Source: Spongilla lacustris
Lineage: Eukaryota; Porifera; Demospongiae; Spongillida; Spongillidae
NCBI GenBank assembly: GCA_949361645.1
Contig: OX442419.1
Span: forward strand, 7,925,377-7,989,376
Direction: 5' to 3'
DNA: 64,000 bases
Numbering within the stretch: the first letter of the stretch is position 1; the number at the start of each line of letters is the position of its first letter. A program made the position numbers and the translations under genes. Positions 2,572 through 62,823 of this stretch are shown here, in pieces. A model generated the notes under the pieces. The model made no database searches. It was not told where the DNA came from and saw only the letters and a program-made list of their open reading frames with translations.

Positions 2572-4833
2572 TTAGATATGTGGCATAGATGTTTTGGAAT
2601 GCTTTGATTGTGATGGGTGACACACTGCTATTGTATCCGCATGTTGTAGGCAACAGCAGCAATGGCAGAGGTAGGGGAAGGTCTTAGGTGAGTACAGGAT
2701 GACCTGACAGAAGACAGGTATGGTTATTATCGCAACAGAGAAGACAAGATGGGACCAGGTGTAGAGCTGCAGGACATCCAACAGCTCCCACAGGGGCACC
2801 AGTGCTGCTAGGTCTGCTAAGCTCGCTGAAATGAAAAAGTTCACCTTTTTGGTGTCCTTGAATTGCTCCCGTTTGACGTGTCGCGTCTGTATAGCAAGCA
2901 GCAGGCAACCAAACGACATTACCATCGGGTACAGGAACAGTAGTAAAAGCCACAACACTGTAAACCTACAAGTGCAGGAGAGCTTCACTTCAAAGTATGG
3001 TGGAGTCATATCATCTAAATACGTTTCCAGCTCTCCTTTCTGATACGGATCTACCACTGTCCACACAAGGAGCACCACAAAGGGATATAGTGTCAGGAGG
3101 AGGACGGCTATAAACAAGCACTCATCCCTCCACATCCTCCCTCCCTTTCTGTAGTTATTTGGCATAAACAGCCTGTACACCCTGAACAGTCGGACAAACA
3201 AGGTGTTTAAGATGAAGTTGATTCCAAAGCTTAGGAACCAGTTCTGAGAATTGCAGAGTACTGAAAAGGCAGTGTCACTCATGTTGCTCATGTGAATGAA
3301 AGTGAAGACAAGAATTGATATGGTAAGCAATGTGCAGCCTATGAACATGAGCAGGCTTAGGTAAGGACTGCTGGCCTTGATGTCCTTCTTATTTCTGTAG
3401 CAGAGAAGGAGGGTGGCATTGACCATTATCAGAACCAGACACAGACCACATATGGACACAATGGAGATGATAAACCATTTGGGATCAAATATAAGGAACC
3501 TATCAATGCTGTCAGAGGGTAAGTGAAGCATGGTGAAGTTTTCTGAAACAATGAATGTACCATTATACGTAGCTAAAAATACAGACCTTCCATTGATGAT
3601 TTGGTTCAGTGTATTACTTGTTATGGGTGCGCGATCATTTTTAAAGGTAATCTTTCCCCCTGCTCCCTGAAAACTAACCCCGAGTAGTGCCTCTTCTAGG
3701 GTATCACTGATCACCCTTGAATTCAGGGTAAAGTTTTCAAGTGACAGGTTCATAGCCCCCAACCACTGCAGGGAACTGTTCAGGGCAAGAGCAAATGACC
3801 ACACCCCATCATACAAGTTGTTTGCGTAAATACTCCCATTGAGATCAAGACCATAACCATTTCCGATAGAGTAATTCTCCAGCTCTTGCAAATATTCAAG
3901 TCTGTAATCAGTGTATTTAATTCCGGATACTAGTACTGCATCATCCGGAGATTGTTGAATGATGTTAACTGTAAACGCCCCTTCAATGGCCTTCGTCATT
4001 GTCTCCGCGTCACAATCAGTGTTAGTCAGTTGAAAGTCCGATACAATGCGATCAGGTAGAATGTATACGTACCCTGGCCACGTTCGGCCACGCCTGTAGG
4101 CCGCGCACATGAAAATAGAACATTCTTGCTCCGTGCCAACGACGACGGTTATCTTGCTTCTCTTGATACCCGGTTGTTCAAGGTCGCGCTCGACGATAGA
4201 TTGTTCTGTTTTGGTTGTTAGGGTACCAATGTTATCAAGCGTCATATTATTACTGCTTATGCTGCTAATCAATAGTTGTGCAATTTTTTGGAAGTAGAGG
4301 CCACCTTCGTCGTGGAACACAGATAGCCTTCTCCACTGTGCGAACTTCATCAGTGATATGATCGAGTCAAGGAAGCCTACGGATGTAGCGGCGAGGTAGA
4401 GCCGAGGATAGGTGGTTCGATCTTGAAGTACAGGAGACATAGACCCTGATATCTGGATAAGGTTTATTCCAAGATGTCCTGCTAACTTAGACACCGCGCC
4501 CGTTGCTGTAGAACAAGGAAGTCCGACAACGCCCACCACGTTAGTATATGGTGTGCTAAGCTCTTGGAAGAGGGAGTATATGTCGTCGACTATGACAGTT
4601 GTTCCACACCCCTCGCCTTCCTTGACAATGAGCTCCAACGTGTGGCCGTTCAGAAAGTAGGGCGTACTGTTAATATGCTTCAAAGCCAATAATCCAGCTG
4701 GCACGAGCTCCAAACCTTGACTCCACCCTGCAGTGCTATCATTGGATGGGAAAGGAACGATTGTGAGCAGACGAAGGACGGCTGCCTCTGCCACGAGGAC
4801 TTTTAGGCACCAGAGGATAGCAACGACCAGCAT
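2572..4833 (-). CDS. Class C G-protein-coupled receptor, GABA-B/mGlu-like, single exon
   Basis: This 753-aa open frame has the full class C layout. A signal peptide (about residues 1-17) is followed by a periplasmic-binding-like Venus-flytrap ligand domain (about 20-440) with many N-glycosylation sequons, then seven membrane segments from about residue 450. The conserved disulfide Cys pair is visible (VLCNSQNW at the top of TM3 and LSCTCRF in the second outer loop). There is no cysteine-rich domain between ligand domain and TM1, which argues for GABA-B type rather than mGlu type. The short Cys-rich tail has no evident coiled coil, unlike mammalian GABA-B subunits. It should sit in the plasma membrane and signal through G proteins; the ligand cannot be told. 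It has no introns, and the frame is intact throughout. A MITE sits 25 bp upstream of the ATG. Confidence 0.88.
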   Translation of the reverse strand: MLVVAILWCLKVLVAEAAVLRLLTIVPFPSNDSTAGWSQGLELVPAGLLALKHINSTPYFLNGHTLELIVKEGEGCGTTVIVDDIYSLFQELSTPYTNVVGVVGLPCSTATGAVSKLAGHLGINLIQISGSMSPVLQDRTTYPRLYLAATSVGFLDSIISLMKFAQWRRLSVFHDEGGLYFQKIAQLLISSISSNNMTLDNIGTLTTKTEQSIVERDLEQPGIKRSKITVVVGTEQECSIFMCAAYRRGRTWPGYVYILPDRIVSDFQLTNTDCDAETMTKAIEGAFTVNIIQQSPDDAVLVSGIKYTDYRLEYLQELENYSIGNGYGLDLNGSIYANNLYDGVWSFALALNSSLQWLGAMNLSLENFTLNSRVISDTLEEALLGVSFQGAGGKITFKNDRAPITSNTLNQIINGRSVFLATYNGTFIVSENFTMLHLPSDSIDRFLIFDPKWFIISIVSICGLCLVLIMVNATLLLCYRNKKDIKASSPYLSLLMFIGCTLLTISILVFTFIHMSNMSDTAFSVLCNSQNWFLSFGINFILNTLFVRLFRVYRLFMPNNYRKGGRMWRDECLFIAVLLLTLYPFVVLLVWTVVDPYQKGELETYLDDMTPPYFEVKLSCTCRFTVLWLLLLFLYPMVMSFGCLLLAIQTRHVKREQFKDTKKVNFFISASLADLAALVPLWELLDVLQLYTWSHLVFSVAIITIPVFCQVILYSPKTFPYLCHCCCCLQHADTIAVCHPSQSKHSKTSMPHI

Positions 4834-4858
4834 GTAAACTGTAGTACACTGGCTACCC

Positions 4859-5086
4859 CAGGGCCGGCGGAGCTTATATAAAGTGGTAGGGCAGGCTATG
4901 AATAATTAATTAACCACAAAAATTCAATTACAACCGCAGGTAGAGCGTTCATTGCAAACGGTACGGCGGCCTTCGCGCAGGCTAACGGTTATTTCAAAGC
5001 TAATTAATTAATGAAAATTGTTAATAATTATCTTAGTCGCGGGAAAAAGTGGTGCCCTACCTACCCTATGGGCTGCGCCGGCCCTG
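4859..5086. mobile_element. 228-bp MITE with 5-bp target duplication TACCC
   Basis: The ends are CAGGGCCGGCGGAGC and its near-perfect inverse (GCTGCGCCGGCCCTG), flanked by TACCC at 4854-4858 and 5087-5091. The interior is AT-rich with several TTAATTAA words and no coding. The CAGGG-type ends suggest a hAT-like or related family. It sits immediately 5' of the receptor gene. Confidence 0.8.
4874..4880 (-). promoter_or_regulatory. TATATAA box inside the MITE, upstream of the receptor gene
   Basis: Read on the minus strand, TATATAA lies about 41 bp before the receptor ATG at 4833, at a usual distance for a TATA-driven start with a very short leader. It belongs to the MITE's terminal region. That it works as the promoter is inference. 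Confidence 0.3.
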
Positions 5087-5972: not shown

Positions 5973-6284
5973 TAGCCTCGTCCCCAGGCCGTCAATTAAA
6001 GTTTGGGGGCACGGCTGTTAGCCCTTTGCATGAAAGATCGGAAGTATGATAACGTCACGTCCGAAGAAAAACCACAGCGGTTGCCTAGAGACATCGTGTC
6101 ACGTTCGCGGACCTTTGCGTAATAAAATGGCAATGCTCGGAGTCATTCCTTCCGCTCAGACATTGATCCTTCGGCCGATCCAGTTCCTGATCAAACTATG
6201 CTGCCAACAGTAAGTTTGACCGAGTCTGACATTCCCGGAGCCTTTTTAAAGCCATCCATTTCAAAAGGCTCTGGGTGTGTCAGA
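5973..6284 (+). repeat. Second copy of repeat pieces found at 56.5-57.2 and 62.4-62.8 kb
   Basis: The first 35 bp match the tip of the helicase element's inverted repeat (TAGCCTCGTCCCCAGGCC). From about 6014 the sequence follows the THAP-element end (CTTTGCATGAAAGATCGG) and then, at the same junction, one arm of the foldback MITE (AAATGGCAA, GATCCTTCGGCCGATCC). So this is a truncated copy of the composite described at 56569-57157. Confidence 0.75.
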
Positions 6285-31504: not shown

Positions 31505-34388
31505 TTACTTTTTCAAATAAGGCTTGAGTTTCATTGCCTTGCAAATCTTGTTGCACTTATGTGAAGTGAAGAATGTGTCCACCCCGGGTGATTTCATATC
31601 AGTGCTACCATAATATAAATCTTCAGTGCACGAGTGGATGGATGGATCAGTGAGCAAAGCTCCCTTCTCGGTCATCACTCCCTGAAGATCACACACCAAG
31701 ATTTTATGCTTTGACTTTTGCCAGCTGTAGTGGCTGAATGCCTGAAGTGCATCACTGATCCTTGATGGTGCTTTGAAGACATAGCCCCCATTGTTGTTGA
31801 ACTTATTGAAGTCACCATGTATGTATGGTTCAACAAAAAAAACACCTCCATTTTGATTCAGGGTCACGAGGGTCAGGGTTAGGGTTAGCATCAGGAGGGT
31901 CAGGGCTAGGGTTAGGGTTAGGATCCGGCATTTTGGTGAGAAATAATGAAGGAGAAACAAATTCTAGATTTTCTACATCAGGAGGTTTTTCATCATTGAA
32001 CATTGCAGCATACTGCATTGCAGTAATGTGAGCATGATAAATCTCCAGATATCGCTTCAATTCAAATTGGTCTTTATTTTCCTTGAGTACAATGTGTGCT
32101 TTAGTATCAACTATGATACCATGATAAGCAAGTCGGCATTGTCCTTCAGCAAAAGAATCAGGACAGCGCTTGATATTAGTAATCAAGCAAGGAAAGATAA
32201 GGTTAATTTCTTTTTCAGTAACATTTGGTTTGAATGGTGGTGTTATAAGTCCCCTCTCTTTCACAGACATCTCCAATTTTGGCATGCCACTTTTTATTGG
32301 TAGGCAGGTTAAAGCTTTGGAAATACTTTCTTGTAATGAATCAAATACTAACTTTTCCACCAGTTTAAGGTCAGTAGCATCAAGCTGGGTTATGTAGGTT
32401 TTTCCACCACCAAGATGGCATAAAATGTCGTTAAATTGTGCTATCATTTTTGTTGTGTCTGTTTTTTTTGATATAGCCAAAATAATACTGTATTTTTGTC
32501 TGTACAGCTGATTTAAAAGATCATTGATGCTTAAACTTCTATCAGGATACTTATCTCCAATAAAGGAGTCATGATACTGAGTTCCATGGCATGGGGCATC
32601 AGCAATGTGTATCAGTACCTGTATAGGTGAGAAATAAATGATGATAGTATGAGGAGTAAAAATGGTAAGCCTGCATGCATCTAGCAGGATTTTAGGAGAT
32701 ATATCCTACTCCTTCTCTGCTCAGAATTGAAAGGGCAGATTAGGATACAACTAACTAACTACATGTATACATGTATGTGAACTTCTTGCCTTAGTTCCAT
32801 GACCCCAGCTCAGATTCTCGATAGCAACCTTTAAGCCACTTGAAATGTCCTCTGCAGTATCTCCACCACGACCATCTGGAATATCAATCTCTTCCAGAAA
32901 GGAAGAAAACATCTCCGCATTTCTATTTTTTTAAAGTATAGCAGCATGTGAGTGCTTATATTCTGGCTGATGGGCACATGAAAATCAGTAGAAATAGAAT
33001 CATGACTGATGTTAGAGTGGACAGGTTTTTGATAATATTTTACATCTTGGCATTCATACAACTGAGAATAATCTCATTTCAAAAGTTTTATTAACAATGC
33101 CATTCCAATAATCTTTAGTGTGCATAATTCAACTTGCAGAGACTGATGTTGTATGGGGTGTTATGGTTAGGCAATCTTTGCCCATTTGAAGATTCAAAAC
33201 TGATGGGTGCACACCACCTTATTCTCGTCCCCCTACATACACTCCATTACTAGCATCACTTATAAATCTTTACCAAGCATCTTAACTTCGTTTGCAATGA
33301 TTTTATCAAGCTATGCACATTACTGACTCCTTCAAGTATGAAATGCAGCATGAAATGTGATCATTTTACAAATATTGCAAAACAAGAACTTGCAGTGTAA
33401 TATAATTATCTCGAGTACTCTAGCTAAAAGTGGAATTTGCCCTCATTACAATCACATGCTAAACTTTACTTAGTGTATGGGTGCATTGTGTCAGACAGTA
33501 TAACATCTTACTCTGTGAAGTCAAGGAAGCTTGTTTGTGACTCTTTAGGTTGATCAAAGTCTGTGTAGCGTACAAAGGAAAAAGAAAATTTAGCATGTGT
33601 GTGTGTCTTAAGCAAACACTCTTTCCAGTTGAGGATATTATCTTTGATCTTTGTAATCCATGGCAACATAGAACCAGTACAGTCAAGAAGAAAGCAAACT
33701 TTTACCTGCACATGCAATAAATAACACATGTTAAATTTCACTTGTACATGTGTTTGGCATACATGTATTAGTTTTTGTTAACGTTATAGAATTTTTAATT
33801 TCTCAGTAGACACCATACAGGGCCGTAGATAACTTTTATACTTTGGGGGGGCACAATCATATATATTGTGATCAGTCTAAATTCAGTCTAATTAATTCAT
33901 ATCTAATATTCGTCACTGTATCGGCATGCCCTGTACGTATAATCCTACATGTAAACACAATTCTTCACAACTTGATTTGAACCATGCGTGCGCGCGATAT
34001 CATACACCGCTCATTATGGAAAAATCTCTGCGACTGGAATTGCGATCGCTACTACGATTGTCGATTGCACTTTTTAAAAAGTAATAGAAATTTTTGGGGG
34101 GCACGTGCCCCCCCAAGCTCCCCCTTATCTACGGCCTTGCCATAAATATGCTTTGTTCTGTATATCTTTAAATGACACATGTATACATTTAGAAATGTGC
34201 ATTGTGTCATTACTATAAGTCAGGTACAGAAACCTCAAACCTCAATTATTGTAGCCTTTATCTCTAACTGTTAATAATATGCTGTGAATCTGTTGGCCCT
34301 TAGGCAATGCTTAAGTTGAAAACTTTCTTGGCAGGAGACAATATCACTGCTCAGTAGCGGATCCAGGGGGGGGCTAGGGGGGGCTATA

Positions 34389-56667: not shown

Positions 56668-56921
56668 AAATGGCAACGCTCGGAGTCTGCTCAGACGTTG
56701 ATCCTTCGGCCGATCCAGTTCCTGATCAAACTATGCTGCCAACAGTAAGTTTGACCAAGTCTGACATACCCAGAGCCTTTTTAAAGCCATCCATTTAAAA
56801 AGGCTCCGGGTATGTCAGACTCGGTCAAGCTTACTGTTGGTAGCATAGTTTTACCAGGAACTGGATCGGCCGAAGGATCACTGTCCGAGCGGGAAGGAAT
56901 GACTACGAGCGTTGCCATTTT
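56668..56921. mobile_element. Foldback MITE, 254 bp, nested in the left arm
   Basis: Almost the entire element is one inverted repeat (AAATGGCAACGCTCG... GATCCTTCGGCCGATCC... GTCTGACATACCC around a TTTAAA centre). Flanking ATA on both sides. The right arm of the outer element shows the empty site (GCGTAATAGACC). The same insertion is present in the copy at 6.1 kb. Confidence 0.85.
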
Positions 56922-57034
56922 ATAGACCCTTTTCATCGCGTGATCTAGTTTCATTAAAAATGATGTTTATCGTTACGGACGCCATGATGGTGCACAGCTG
57001 GTCTATGAAAAGATGACTGGAAAACTATATAAAC

Positions 57035-57147
57035 AAAGTGTTTGGAACAAATCCACTGGGATTTCAACGTGGTCATTGTAATGTGCTTCCTGGAGATCGC
57101 AGCAATGTATCCATCCCTACGCTTCATGCTCAATTTTTTAATATCTA
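57035..57147 (-). pseudogene. Second half of a THAP domain, displaced by the insertion
   Basis: Minus-strand frame LDIKKLSMKRRDGYIAAISR and QWICSKHF, ending in the C-x2-H half of a THAP zinc site. Its first half lies 5.4 kb away at 62623-62531. A one-base shift separates the two frames, so the gene may already have been damaged. Confidence 0.7.
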
Positions 57148-57156
57148 GGACCTTTC

Positions 57157-57273
57157 TAGCCTCGTCCCCAGGCCGTCAATTAAAGTTTGGGAAAAAAGAC
57201 GGCCTGGTATCCATTGCAACTCTGTTAGTGCGCATGCGCTGGCCATTACCAGAAAAAGTGGTAATCGTATATT
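57157..57273 (+). repeat. Left 117-bp terminal inverted repeat of the helicase element
   Basis: Identical to the inverse of 62412-62528. Contains an inner palindrome (CCATTACCAG/GGTAAT) and GCGCATGCGC. A 35-bp piece also occurs at 5973. Confidence 0.95.
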
Positions 57274-57321
57274 GTAGTAATTTCGCTTGTAATCCTGTCC
57301 GTAAACTATTCTTCTCGAACA

Positions 57322-58819
57322 ATGGCGAATACAGAGGAATTCCGTGAAGCGGTGGCTTATTCTCTTCTGTGTGTTAATCAACAGAACCTTGTATTGAAGG
57401 CTAAGCAAGAGGAAGCACTATTTCATTTGTACAGTGGTCGGGATGTGTTCGCTTGGTTTCCTACAGGGTACGGGAAGTCGATTTGCTACCAACTGATACC
57501 ATTCATGTTTGACTTCAAACTGAAGCGAACCACTGTTCCACAAGCGGAACGAAGTGCAGTGCTAGTTATTTCACCACTCGTTTCCCTGATGGTTGACCAG
57601 GTGTCTGGGTTACAGACGAGGGGTGTACCTGCTGCAATTCTCTCTGGAAATACTGGTAAGTAGGTCCATCGATACCTGGAGCATTCTTAGCTAGTTGGCT
57701 ATATAGATTTAAATGTTTGGTTGAGGTGCAATTTGCTCAATTTGTGTAGATGTGGACAAAGAACTACTTGCTACAGAGAGAGATGTGTTTCTTGGTCGTT
57801 TTCGTCTGCTGTACAGTGCTCCGGAGGCCATATTTGGTACAGACTACACATGGAGACAACTTTTTGTCTGCCCTCCTCTGTCTGATACTGTAGTGGCAGT
57901 TGCTGTTGATGAAGCACACTGTGTATTCAAGTGGTAAGTGGCATGAAATAAATTAGTATTCATAACAAGTGCTACTAATATTGACAGGAGCAAAGACTTT
58001 CGCCCTTCGTATGGTGCACTAAGGGAGCTAAGGTCTTTTGTGCCATGTTGTGCTCCAATGCTTGCTACCACAGCAACGGTGACTAGCTTGATGAGGGACG
58101 ACATAATTGACAAGCTAGATATGGCTGGCTGTTGTGTAGTATCTGAGTCTCCTGACAAGCCAAACATTTGCTATGAAGTGGTAAGAAAGAAGACCATTGA
58201 GGAGGACTTTGAATGTTTGGTCAAAGACGTAGCTGAAAATGGCATCAAAGCTCAGAGAGTTGTGGTGTACTGTCAATCTCTCGATATGTGTGCATCTTTA
58301 TATGCTCACTTTCTCCATTCCCTACGAGATGCCAGCTACTACCCACCAGGAGCAGAACAGATCAGTGACAATCGCCTATTTGGAATGTTCCATTCCTGTA
58401 CGGATGAGCACAATAAAAAGGTGATAATGACCAGTCTTAGTCACAGGGATGGTACTATTAGAGTGGTGTTTGCAACAATGGCTCTGGGAATGGGGGTGGA
58501 CTTCAAGAACTTGGACTACATCATTCATTATGGTGCTCCTCGGTCTCTTGAAGACTACATGCAGGAGAGTGGCAGAGCTGGCAGAGATCACCAACAATCT
58601 ATGTCCAGAATTTACTGGAAACCAGTTGAAGTTCCTCTGTATGCAGACCAGAGTGTTCACCGTAATGTGGAATTAAAAGCCGTGAGAGACTATCTTGAGA
58701 ATACTGAGCTTTGTCGGAGATTCATCTTGCTCAGGTACTTTGATCCAGTTGTGGCGATGTCCCTGGGACCCCGTAACAGGGAACTGTGCTGTGACAATTG
58801 CCGAGGCAATTTTCAGTGA
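57322..58819 (+). CDS. RecQ-like superfamily 2 DNA helicase, transposon-encoded, 3 exons
   Basis: Exons 57322-57655, 57750-57933 and 57988-58819 (GT-AG introns of 94 and 54 bp) give 449 aa. The start is ATG in ACAATGG, 48 bp inside the terminal repeat. ATP-dependent 3'-5' DNA unwinding is expected: motif I WFPTGYGKS (about residues 45-53), Ia VISPLVSLMVDQV, II DEAHC (about 165), III LATTATVT, V TIRVVFATMALGMGVD, VI QESGRAGRD. The end has CRRF and CCDNC, the RecQ zinc-binding cysteines; no HRDC domain. It is shorter than cellular RecQ1/BLM. In this element it probably assists transposition, for example by processing ends or gaps (inference). All motifs are intact. It converges with the transposase gene, with about 290 bp between stops. 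Confidence 0.9.
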
Positions 58820-59108
58820 AGATACATCCCTCTATTACAACTGCACACCAACACCTCCATTTAACACCTGTACACTAACATCTGCACACTAACACCTCCC
58901 TCTACTACTGACATCTCCCTCCATCACATGCACTCTGACACCTTCATCTACATGTGTCACCTTCGCACTGACATCTCCCTCTATCACCGATACACTGACA
59001 TTTCCTTCTGACATCTGCATAACACACTCAGGTACTCTCACATCAACATCAACTTAGCATCGGAAAACCAGTGGGTGTATATATGTTGTACGTGTATGCA
59101 TGAGGCCA
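58820..59108. other. Spacer between convergent helicase and transposase genes
   Basis: Made of irregular ACATCTCCCTC / ACACCTCC / CTGACA units, a degenerate minisatellite; likely shared 3' UTRs. No clear polyadenylation signal assigned. Confidence 0.6.
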
Positions 59109-62100
59109 TCAGTAGTCTACCTCATCTACATCTATTGAATTATCTTCCTCATGATTCTCATTCTCACTATCCGAGTCTGGTCGTGTTTCAAGGATGTTAC
59201 TATACTGTTTAGCCTTCTCTGCTATCCACTTTATCATTTTTTCTCTATCTATTGTATGTAAAGGATTTGGAGAAAATTCGGGAAACTTGGAGTGATATCT
59301 GTTTTCAATTGCCTCAAGCACTCTGGCCTTTAGCACAACTTCAACAACCATCTTAACGTCTTTCTCATCTGCCCTCCTGCTGTGAGCTGTTGCGTCGGGA
59401 TGGATGCCAGTTTGTTTGTCAAAGGCTAGAGCAAGTCTCTCAAGGGATGACACTGCCCTTGCTGCACGAGTGCTGGCTAACTCGGTGAAGTTAGCTCCCA
59501 TGTTTGCAATGATTTCTTTGTACAGCTTGTTGATGTGCTCGTTGTGGAGGTCACAAGGTATGTTTTGCCCTTTGCCTCCATGTGTGTTGACAAACCTTCC
59601 CCACATCAGTTGGTGCACAAGGTATGGCTGGAGAGTGACCAGTTGAAACTGCAGCCTAAGAGCCTCAAGTGCATATTTGGTCTTTTTCTCAGCATGGAAG
59701 TGTAGCATAAACAGCTTCCAACACCTCACTACACGTTCACCGTCTCCTTCTTTCCAAGCATCAATGAAAAGGTATACTAGAGCGGAAAAATGACATAGAA
59801 CACGTGCATAGTTGTGCACTCCATCTCCAGTGTCTGCCACAGACTCATTTAAGAAGGCCTCTGGGATAACAGCTAACTTCTTTACCACCTTCACTGCCAC
59901 GTCCTCCAACAAAGTCTGGTTGATCTCTACACCCTTAATGTCATTGTTTGGTCCTTCAATGCTTAACTCCTTACATGCAGCTGCCACTATGTGTCCCTTG
60001 AACACAGTGAATAATGCATCCTGACATGCATGCATCTCTTCCTTGGGCTTTCTTGCTTTAGGCAAGCGTCCAAGTCGGGTGAACAGTTGGTACAGTGAGC
60101 CATAGTCTCGTGGACTGATCTTGAAAAGTTTTTGCCATATCAGCTACAGATAGTAAAGGTACAGTCATTTAGACATATATGTTTACTGAAAGTATTACTT
60201 ACCATCATGAAATTCATGACACAGTGCCAGTCTTCTACACATGGCTCAAGCTGTTCAAGTCGGCCCTCGCGTGTATTTGAGCACATCACATGACGTTTTG
60301 CACCCCGTTCTCTCTCACATGTGACATGGTCACCCCCTGTAAGAACAACATGGTTGTATGTTGGTCCTAGGTATGAAGCCATTACTCTCATTATGTGCAC
60401 CATGTCACTGCTCTTCATCTCATTTTTGTGCAGCACATCCAACACAATCACCTCGGACTTGTCTGCCATATTGTCACTGTAGGTGTGCGGAATATGGGTG
60501 ACAACAAACTTTTTCAGCTTGCTCATGTCCTTTATATAATCACATATGATTCTACCAACAAGCACTTCCATGTCATGCTGGACAACCTTCATGTCTTCAA
60601 GGGATGGAAGAAAACAGTCTACATTTACTGATGTGAGGCTTTGTGTGGAGAACACAGGCAGAGGAGCAGGAGGTGGGATGCGAGCCTTGATTACCAGTAG
60701 GCTGAACATGTGTCTAAGCTGCCCATGGTGGTCACTCCTGATGTCTCGTACATTGCACTGCTTGTCCACATTGTCACCAACATACTTAACAAAAGCCCCT
60801 TCTTTTAGCCATTTGTCCATCATTTTTGTATGCTGTTTGCTAATTTCGTCCACTCGCTTGAGGATGGCATTGTAGCTGAGGGTGACGTTGAGATGATTTA
60901 GCCTTGTCCAAGCCTGTAATAAAACATACGCTATCAGTAATGTTGTTGTGTATGAACTACATTATCAAGTTGCATTCACACACACATACCTTCTTGTGAA
61001 TTCTAGTGGAAAAGAGAGCACTGGATATGTAGGACTGCAATCCACACATCTGTCTGTTGCGCTCCTTCAGCAGAATTGCCACAGCTGTGCACAAGCTTGG
61101 GTAATGTGAATCCCCTTTCTTTTGCTTGTTCCTATGGTCTGAGCATGTGACAATGGAATCGTGTATGATGTGGAATAGTGTGGGTGCCTTGAAATTGAGC
61201 TCAGAAATGATCTCATTCCAGGAGAAGCTCTCAGCCTGCTCCAGGGACATATGGCGGAACAGTGACACTGGCTGTGCTTTCTTTTTGCACAACAAGGAAC
61301 ACTCTTTGTTGACCATACTGGACACTTTGGACACAGCCTCTTGTCTAAGTCGAGGATTGGCAAAAAGAGCCCTGCAAATAGACTTCACATTGCCGCCAGC
61401 CAGTGCCTTGGCAACCTTTTCAAACTCAGGACTCACAATTATCATCACTTCAGCAGCCTTTGTACGTGAGTACACTGAAATCTGTGACATTATGTGTGTT
61501 ATGATTGTATCATGTTTATAACTTGCTTACTTTGATTGGTGTAGGAGCTGTAGCATCTGTCGTACTGTTGTGACATGTGTCTATCACTGTTGAGCTTGCA
61601 TCACCTATATGTAAGGCTGTATGTGGCTCATGAATACTTCCATGCACAGTTCCTACCTTCTGCAGGATTCTGTGAAAGGTTTGAGACGCCTACCACATCT
61701 ACCTCTTGTTCTCTGTGACCATCTGTAATGCCTACCACATCTATCTCTTGTTCTCTGGGACCATCTGTAATGCACTCTGTACCAGCTTGAGAATTACAAC
61801 TGTCACTCAGTGGCATGGCAGTACAATCATCTGTATGTGTTGTTGTGGTAACATTACTGTTAATAATTCATGTTTTGTCTTACAGTTGTCACAATTAGGA
61901 TAAGTAAGCCTTCTTCCGGGGTGCTCAGGAGTCGGCCGCTTAGCCACAGGTCTGCACTGCCTAGTGTGAGGAGATGCCCCAGGGCCACTTGTATCCTTGG
62001 TTCTCTTATTTGTGACCTGGACTAGTGAACCCATGGCACTACCAGTGGCAATGAGAGTGTCTTTATTTTTTTCATAGCTAGCCTTGGCTGTTGTTCTAAA

Positions 62101-62304
62101 ACACTCTGCTGACACAAGTTTGTTTTTGCAAGACCTGCACATGAATCTGGACAAACCATCGTCTGGAGTCACTGGGACATCGGCAAGCTTGCTGAGCCTG
62201 TCTGCAAGATCGGATGCCAAAGATTCCCTTGAAAAGAGTGCAACACAATGTGTAGGAGACACAACACTGCCACATATCCTGCAAGACTTTGACGTCGTCG
62301 CCAT
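59109..62304 (-). CDS. Academ-type DDE transposase with N-terminal zinc finger, 6 exons, 968 aa
   Basis: Exons on the minus strand: 62304-61884, 61830-61657, 61604-61531, 61481-60990, 60913-60203 and 60143-59109. All introns are GT-AG and short, phases agree and the frame is intact. The N-terminus has a ZAD-like finger (SCRICG, then MCRSCKNKL). Exon 4 shows SLEQAESFSWNEIISEL and the helical domain typical of this family. Likely catalytic residues, assigned by me: Asp in KYVGDNVD (about 434), Asp in LTGGDHVT (about 582) and Glu in NIPCDLHNEHIN (about 826). The C-terminus is acidic and ends VDEVDY. It should bind the 117-bp ends and cut and join DNA in the nucleus. No damage is visible. Confidence 0.85.
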
Positions 62305-62411
62305 ACTACGCGTAGCTATGTATTTTGTGCACGTGCGTGATATGATTTTAATTGAAAACGGAAAAACTTTAGACCGCTAGCGAGTTAGTTTACGGAAAGG
62401 TTTACAAGCAA

Positions 62412-62528
62412 AATATACGATTACCACTTTTTCTGGTAATGGCCAGCGCATGCGCACTAACAGAGTTGCAATGGATACCAGGCCGTCTTTTTTCCCAAAC
62501 TTTAATTGACGGCCTGGGGACGAGGCTA
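62412..62528 (-). repeat. Right 117-bp terminal inverted repeat of the helicase element
   Basis: Exact inverse of 57157-57273; followed by the GGACCTTTC duplication at 62529-62537. Confidence 0.95.
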
Positions 62529-62530
62529 GG

Positions 62531-62623
62531 ACCTTTCTTGATCACACAAATAATTCGGTAGAACGAAGCATCTTTGTTGCGCCCGGAACGATTGGAACAG
62601 CCTATTACTACGCACAATACCAT
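62531..62623 (-). pseudogene. First half of a THAP domain, disrupted by the helicase element
   Basis: Starts MVLCVVIGCSNRSGRNKDAS with the first zinc Cys pair (C-x5-C), then FYRIICVIKKGP, and is cut at the 9-bp duplication. THAP domains are DNA-binding modules of several transposases. Confidence 0.75.
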
Positions 62624-62823
62624 GGCTACCTGTGCACCATCATGGCGGCTGATAATATTCATGGCAACTTGTTTATTAATTCACATGACTTGTGACGTCA
62701 CATGAAAGGGGTCTATTACGCAAAGGTCCGCGAACGTGACACAATGTCTCTAGGCAACCGCTGTGGCTTTTACTCCGGACGTGACATTTATCGTACTTCC
62801 GATCTTTCATGCAAAGGGTCCAT

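Follow-up and report, generated by a model that had tools for sequence, protein, structure and literature searches.

An apparently complete, recently inserted AcademH transposon of the sponge Spongilla lacustris with its own RecQ-type helicase gene and near-tip palindromes

What part a helicase plays in a transposon that moves by cut-and-paste is a question posed by a 5,372-bp element with TAG...CTA termini in the sponge Spongilla lacustris. The window in which it lies is the whole stretch of DNA that was analysed, 64,000 nucleotides (nt) of the forward strand of contig OX442419.1 (assembly GCA_949361645.1, positions 7,925,377 to 7,989,376), and the element occupies positions 57157-62528 of it. 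An earlier note, made by a model from the sequence alone, had described an Academ-type transposon carrying a RecQ-like helicase, apparently intact, recently inserted and possibly active. Comparison with other copies in the same genome shows one mobile unit composed of terminal inverted repeats (TIRs), 9-bp target-site duplications (TSDs), a transposase with a DUF6589 domain and a convergent RecQ-type helicase; most probably it is an AcademH DNA transposon that is complete and was inserted recently. Its borders and immediate surroundings, in window positions, are the following.

57157..62528, no strand: predicted complete AcademH element (TIRs, TSD, two near-identical copies elsewhere)
57157..57273, plus strand: left TIR, 117 bp, perfect
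62412..62528, minus strand: right TIR, 117 bp, perfect
57148..57156, no strand: TSD GGACCTTTC, left copy, 9 bp
62529..62537, no strand: TSD GGACCTTTC, right copy, 9 bp
56921..57156, no strand: left part of a host repeat of about 415 bp (joined-flank search; five copies aligned)
62538..62717, no strand: right part of the same host repeat (joined-flank search; five copies aligned)

The perfect 117-bp repeats and the 9-bp TSD pointed out in the earlier note are both present, and the host repeat that the element splits is about 415 bp long. A query made by joining the two flanks with one TSD kept gave 44 genome matches, counting the element's own two flanks, and many of the 44 run uninterrupted over the join. 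Five uninterrupted copies were fetched; in each of them GGACCTTTC occurs once where the flanks meet, and such read-through copies show the insertion, its borders and the length of the TSD. Alignment of copies from the same genome, which the earlier note had proposed, found two that are full length and nearly identical, each on another contig and each with its own perfect 9-bp TSD: L010 differs from the window copy by 2 bases, and L009 by 3 bases and a 3-bp gap. Together with the uninterrupted host repeats, these two copies indicate recent movement as one unit, and the suggestion that the insertion is recent was borne out.

Across 20 fetched loci and the window (L022 and L023 having common flanks), 19 pairs of ends belonging to the same element were found, of which 13 have a perfect 9-bp TSD, 2 have one with a single mismatch and 4 have none (L020, L026, L027 and L028). 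The count excludes two pairings of ends from different elements, and three loci (L011, L013 and L017) have a single end only. The pattern of TIRs and TSDs, with 13 perfect duplications among 19 end pairs, is not a chance event.

Also found were several shortened relatives. Loci L022-L026 are non-autonomous copies of 478-1,054 bp with ends as in the window element, and four of them (L022, L023, L024 and L026) contain pieces of the last helicase exon in both orientations. L011 and L013 have an AcademH-like helicase half with 80-81% identity; neither the transposase half nor a second end was found within the fetched 8.9 kb. A solitary AcademH left-end fragment with an exact tip lies elsewhere in the window, at 5973-6015, adjoining a different high-copy repeat, and tiny elements of about 70-80 bp that are little more than two facing tips occur at L049:2866-2945, C1:13280735-13280804 and C2:14559255-14559322.

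AcademH elements, as described in PMC10045372 (2023), combine a helicase with TSDs of 9 or 10 bp, whereas the AcademX elements described there have a nuclease and TSDs of 3 or 4 bp; the AcademH lineage is the subject of Kojima (2020, Mob DNA 11:15), which by its title concerns animals and fungi. The window element has its own helicase, inside the TIRs of three copies, and 9-bp TSDs, both in the 13 perfect end pairs and in a distant relative, L059. Because both features match that description of AcademH, the element would be a new member, which supports sharpening the Academ-type assignment of the earlier note to AcademH; the family is set here by description. AcademX would share the superfamily through a transposase relationship; its nuclease and shorter TSDs differ from the RecQ-type helicase and 9-bp TSDs seen here. 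The 9-bp TSDs do not fit AcademX, and no nuclease is among the domains of the element. A genome search gave only two XPG_I matches, and none of the DUF6589 matches listed lies close to either. RecQ helicases are also described in Kolobok transposons, namely KolobokH and Kolobok-1_CCri, and the latter, like the window element, has its helicase on the complementary strand (PMC9587614). Going by descriptions, the window element may differ from KolobokH: its transposase matches only DUF6589 and zf-AD in Pfam, and the helicase here is a separate, convergent gene on the other strand.

The two predicted genes lie tail to tail, the helicase on the plus strand and the transposase on the minus strand, with exons as follows.

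57322..57655, plus strand: helicase exon 1, Walker A TGYGKS
57750..57933, plus strand: helicase exon 2, DEAH box, acceptor uncertain
57988..58819, plus strand: helicase exon 3, Helicase_C, RecQ zinc end CCDNC
61884..62304, minus strand: transposase exon 1, zf-AD (ZAD) at residues 8-79 (zf-AD E 1.6e-9; alignment to Grauzone ZAD 1pzw, E 0.038)
61657..61830, minus strand: transposase exon 2, acceptor uncertain
61531..61604, minus strand: transposase exon 3, acceptor uncertain
60990..61481, minus strand: transposase exon 4
60203..60913, minus strand: transposase exon 5, N part of DUF6589, candidate catalytic D434 (GDNVDK) and D582 (GGDHVT)
59109..60143, minus strand: transposase exon 6, C part of DUF6589, candidate catalytic E826 (DLHNEH), stop

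The convergent layout and the undamaged frames claimed earlier, 449 aa for the helicase and 968 aa for the transposase, were reproduced with GT-AG introns; alternative acceptors would give 445-457 aa and 945-972 aa, respectively, a choice that sequence alone does not settle. The helicase matches DEAD, Helicase_C and RecQ_Zn_bind above the Pfam cut-offs, and its residues 37-447 align to human WRN, including the zinc cysteines of the CCDNC end. Its motifs stand at residues 48 (TGYGKS), 165 (DEAH), 365 (QESGRAGRD) and 440 (CCDNC), such that both the superfamily 2 motifs and the zinc-binding region expected of a RecQ protein are present, in agreement with the RecQ-like helicase and zinc end first described. 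Neither HRDC nor a winged-helix family was among the Pfam matches.

In the transposase, DUF6589 (PF20231) spans residues 486-878 (E 2e-46). Conservation of acidic residues was counted in a 71-row alignment (A3), using only rows with letters at the site in question. The first candidate aspartate, D434 in GDNVDK, is present in 7 of 7 rows, with D437 equally conserved; the second, D582 in GGD, in 8 of 8; and the candidate glutamate, E826 in NEH, in 67 of 67. A pattern scan of 13 other loci, not all of which include every exon, found the glutamate motif in 13, the second aspartate in 9 and the first in 6. We infer from these conserved residues, which occur in the order D, D, E, that D434, D582 and E826 are a candidate DDE triad.

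The earlier note had allowed that genome copies might place the two genes in separate elements, and the reverse was observed. The 109 DUF6589 matches in the genome cluster into 68 loci, and at 45 of these a convergent RecQ match lies no more than 4 kb downstream, where the chance of such a neighbour is about 0.0013 per locus. One other locus has a different arrangement, and 22 have no RecQ match among the 150 of 153 that were listed. Thirty-seven loci were examined for co-divergence, 26 of them with both segments, and in 11 representatives differing by more than 10% the transposase and helicase distances are correlated (Mantel r 0.82, p 0.0001); over all 26 loci the correlation is r 0.87. Five relatives, all in partial decay, gave ratios of nonsynonymous to synonymous substitution rates (dN/dS) of 0.14-0.20 in the helicase and 0.23-0.28 in the transposase. 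Locus L059, with about 31% protein identity, is a 3,980-bp element that contains both genes between perfect 156-bp TIRs, with a 9-bp TSD (TACCTCTGC), TAG termini and a tip of the same type as the window element. The best database matches of the transposase and the helicase have the consecutive tags Em0007g1424a and Em0007g1425a, the prefix of which we take to denote Ephydatia muelleri, and at least eight contigs of equal size in both match lists, among 120 rows each, suggest from their sizes more linked pairs elsewhere. These comparisons show that the two predicted genes have been inherited together over long times, with both apparently under purifying selection.

The transposase begins with the ZAD-like finger that had been noticed earlier, now a significant zf-AD match (38.3 bits vs a cut-off of 28). 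All four cysteines align to those of the Grauzone ZAD, albeit weakly, and the fold prediction for this region has a predicted local distance difference test score (pLDDT) of 41, too low to be of use. A six-frame search of the genome gave 22 zf-AD matches, 20 of which lie in AcademH copies; the remaining two, from among three matches on contig C16, are outside this tally. Eighteen of the 20 assignments were made by sequence, comprising 3 full copies, 9 matches at the transposase N-termini of fetched relatives and 6 fetched matches with a transposase N-terminus and an element end, and 2 by neighbourhood, one on contig C6 with a DUF6589 match nearby and one at C2:13790237 with an exact tip nearby. 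No host ZAD gene was seen among the 22 matches of this search, the two C16 matches being outside the check. ZAD is a protein-interaction module according to a title in the reference list of PMC9810180. Zinc-finger transcription factors such as Grauzone (1pzw) and ZNF276 (7ppp) have it at the N-terminus, as does the transposase, whose C..C / C..C pattern aligns to Grauzone; in those factors it heads a C2H2 array, whereas here it heads a transposase.

Each end of the element has an inverted repeat just inside its tip.

57168..57207, plus strand: left subterminal palindrome with a 20-nt loop, from nt 12 of the element (shuffles, DNA fold, compensatory changes)
57168-57177 (CCAGGCCGTC) and 57198-57207 (GACGGCCTGG): arms of the left palindrome
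62478..62517, minus strand: right subterminal palindrome, mirror of the left; arms 62508-62517 and 62478-62487

The right end is identical to the left across the first 95 nt printed. None of 1000 shuffles equalled the left palindrome, as against 1 of 487 windows inside the element, and its DNA fold has a z of -3.4. The tip consensus of the ends seen is TAGYCTCGTM, followed from nt 11 or 12 by an inverted repeat in each of the six lineages for which ends were obtained, with compensatory changes between lineages. Perfect stems of 9-18 bp occur in 8 of 8 ends tested from these lineages; for six ends 0 of 1000 dinucleotide shuffles did as well, for the remaining two 4 and 5 of 1000, and internal windows of the same elements did so in 0-6 of 237-793. 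Folded as single-stranded DNA, all eight ends do better than their shuffles on average, with z from -2.6 to -7.3, and each is matched by 0-2 of 200 shuffles. Across the six lineages 4 of the 10 arm pairs change on both sides, a count reached in 16 of 500 shuffles, and 96.7% of cells pair. The covariation score of the arms is 0.360 vs 0.135 in shuffles, and at most 0.083 when the arms are slid; 0 of 500 shuffles reach it, a count that is no probability, the lineages being related. At least 8 of 10 pairs are kept in 39 of 45 distinct termini (two of them an artefact) vs 8 of 69 for a control arm, and reversed-pattern controls for the search for tip and partner arm gave 0. Among 62 distinct ends copied from the list of exact tips, pairing extends by 3 or more bases in 50, with G-C, A-T and C-G as alternatives at position 21. 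Loops between the arms measure 16 to 45 nt, and ends D, E and F have nested pairing inside the loop. The comparison of lineages shows an inverted repeat that starts 10-11 nt inside the tip; such ends could fold into hairpins or serve as paired binding sites.

Taken as a whole, we think it highly probable that this is an AcademH element and a two-gene unit that moves by DDE cut-and-paste, and that its helicase matters for mobility, wherever it acts. Transposase dimers, assisted by ZAD, would bind both ends, and the DDE core (D434, D582, E826) would cut at the TAG/CTA tips and join, with insertion at a 9-nt stagger. The self-coded helicase might unwind DNA at the palindromic ends, as cruciform or hairpin, which is the most attractive site, or otherwise at gaps. 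The binding, cutting and stagger steps rest on family knowledge as well as sequence; the helicase step we infer. The element may code its own helicase because mobility needs unwinding. A requirement for the helicase in mobility seems probable, and action on folded ends is doubtful enough to be offered tentatively. The most far-reaching proposal is that AcademH ends are built to fold, that the recognised substrate includes a hairpin or cruciform at a constant distance of 10-11 nt from the site of cleavage, that the RecQ-type helicase is carried because excision or insertion passes through a folded or unwound state, and that the ZAD of animal transcription factors traces to Academ transposases, much as THAP is related to the DNA-binding domain of the P element; as a joint claim this is rather unlikely.

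Several observations weigh against parts of this account. That DUF6589 is the Academ transposase domain is an assumption. A rival glutamate, E784 (YALEAL), is nearly as conserved as E826 (62 of 69 rows), the predicted structure of the transposase is poor near the triad (pLDDT below 50 at residues 18-46, 162-195 and 398-417), and its fold matched none of the solved or viral folds searched. At the ends, 2 of the 6 lineages have a broken tenth arm pair, further pair types across the six are no more numerous than in shuffles (188 of 500 reach the count), and in one subfamily there is no significant covariation between the T-run and A-run lengths of the arms (rho 0.42, p 0.40, n=6). Genome-wide, an exact GGCCTGG partner arm follows 15-45 nt on in only 319 of 723 exact tips (TAGCCTCGTCCCCAGGCC). 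Furthermore, palindromic sites near the tips, bound by two zinc-binding domains of a transposase dimer, are described for the piggyBac and piggyBat ends (PMC11707139), which the window element resembles in both palindromes and zinc-binding transposase domain.

That precedent favours a different end step for the same AcademH element, which we regard as an even bet: the palindrome would be a pair of inverted sites for a transposase dimer, never extruded, and the helicase would act elsewhere, for example in gap or donor-break repair. Six of 10 arm pairs are invariant among the six lineages, as a protein site would predict. The piggyBac and piggyBat palindromes are, however, short and contiguous in that description, whereas here the arms lie 16-45 nt apart and a helicase gene is present. 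This spacing may speak against paired protein sites, and so do the lineage-specific pairing beyond the core and the nested pairing in the loops of ends D, E and F.

A helicase that is a passenger or a recent capture with no role in transposition is very improbable and largely refuted. The non-autonomous copies L022-L026 have spread without an intact helicase, though service in trans is possible, and in L018 the helicase is open and the transposase broken; against this stand purifying selection, convergent linkage at 45 of 68 loci, co-divergence over 11 lineages and the consecutive tags of the best matches. Accidental nesting or adjacency of an Academ element and a RecQ gene of the host, for which nothing was found beyond the existence of RecQ-like matches elsewhere in the genome, is refuted by the copies: in three that are unlinked, and in the lineage with about 31% identity, a single set of TIRs and TSD encloses both genes.

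Some of those other RecQ-like matches are found towards the ends of contigs, at distances of 4 to about 200 kb, and their open frames measure 1480-1505 aa (743 aa on C20).

C10:4049-4690, C14:66426-67067, C16:201406-202044, C6:10340082-10340408, C20:20284-20433: RecQ-like matches near contig ends

The C10 copy, in locus L071 (C10:1-6200), has DEAD, Helicase_C, a sub-threshold RecQ_Zn_bind match and a long N-terminal extension. These frames are reminiscent of fungal telomere-linked helicases; CCCTAA / TTAGGG was not found in the first 3 kb of L071. Elsewhere in the window, all on the minus strand, are another transposase (362-1630; DDE_Tnp_4 and a sub-threshold HTH_Tnp_4 match), a 777-aa open frame of class C G-protein-coupled receptor type (2572-4905; ANF_receptor and 7tm_3) and an open frame with a sub-threshold Alpha_kinase match (31830-32705; 17.1 bits vs 21.3).

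AcademH is a kind of transposon already known; new here are the near-tip end palindromes and the concentration of ZAD matches in AcademH copies. Every ZAD domain of this genome that was checked belongs to an AcademH transposase, which may offer a concrete lead on the origin of a large transcription-factor domain. For the question of the helicase, the element would be a compact test system, with two open genes, near-identical copies, empty host-repeat sites and a 10-nt tip followed by a palindrome. Should the helicase prove necessary for the palindrome, transposon ends would be handled in AcademH in a new way.
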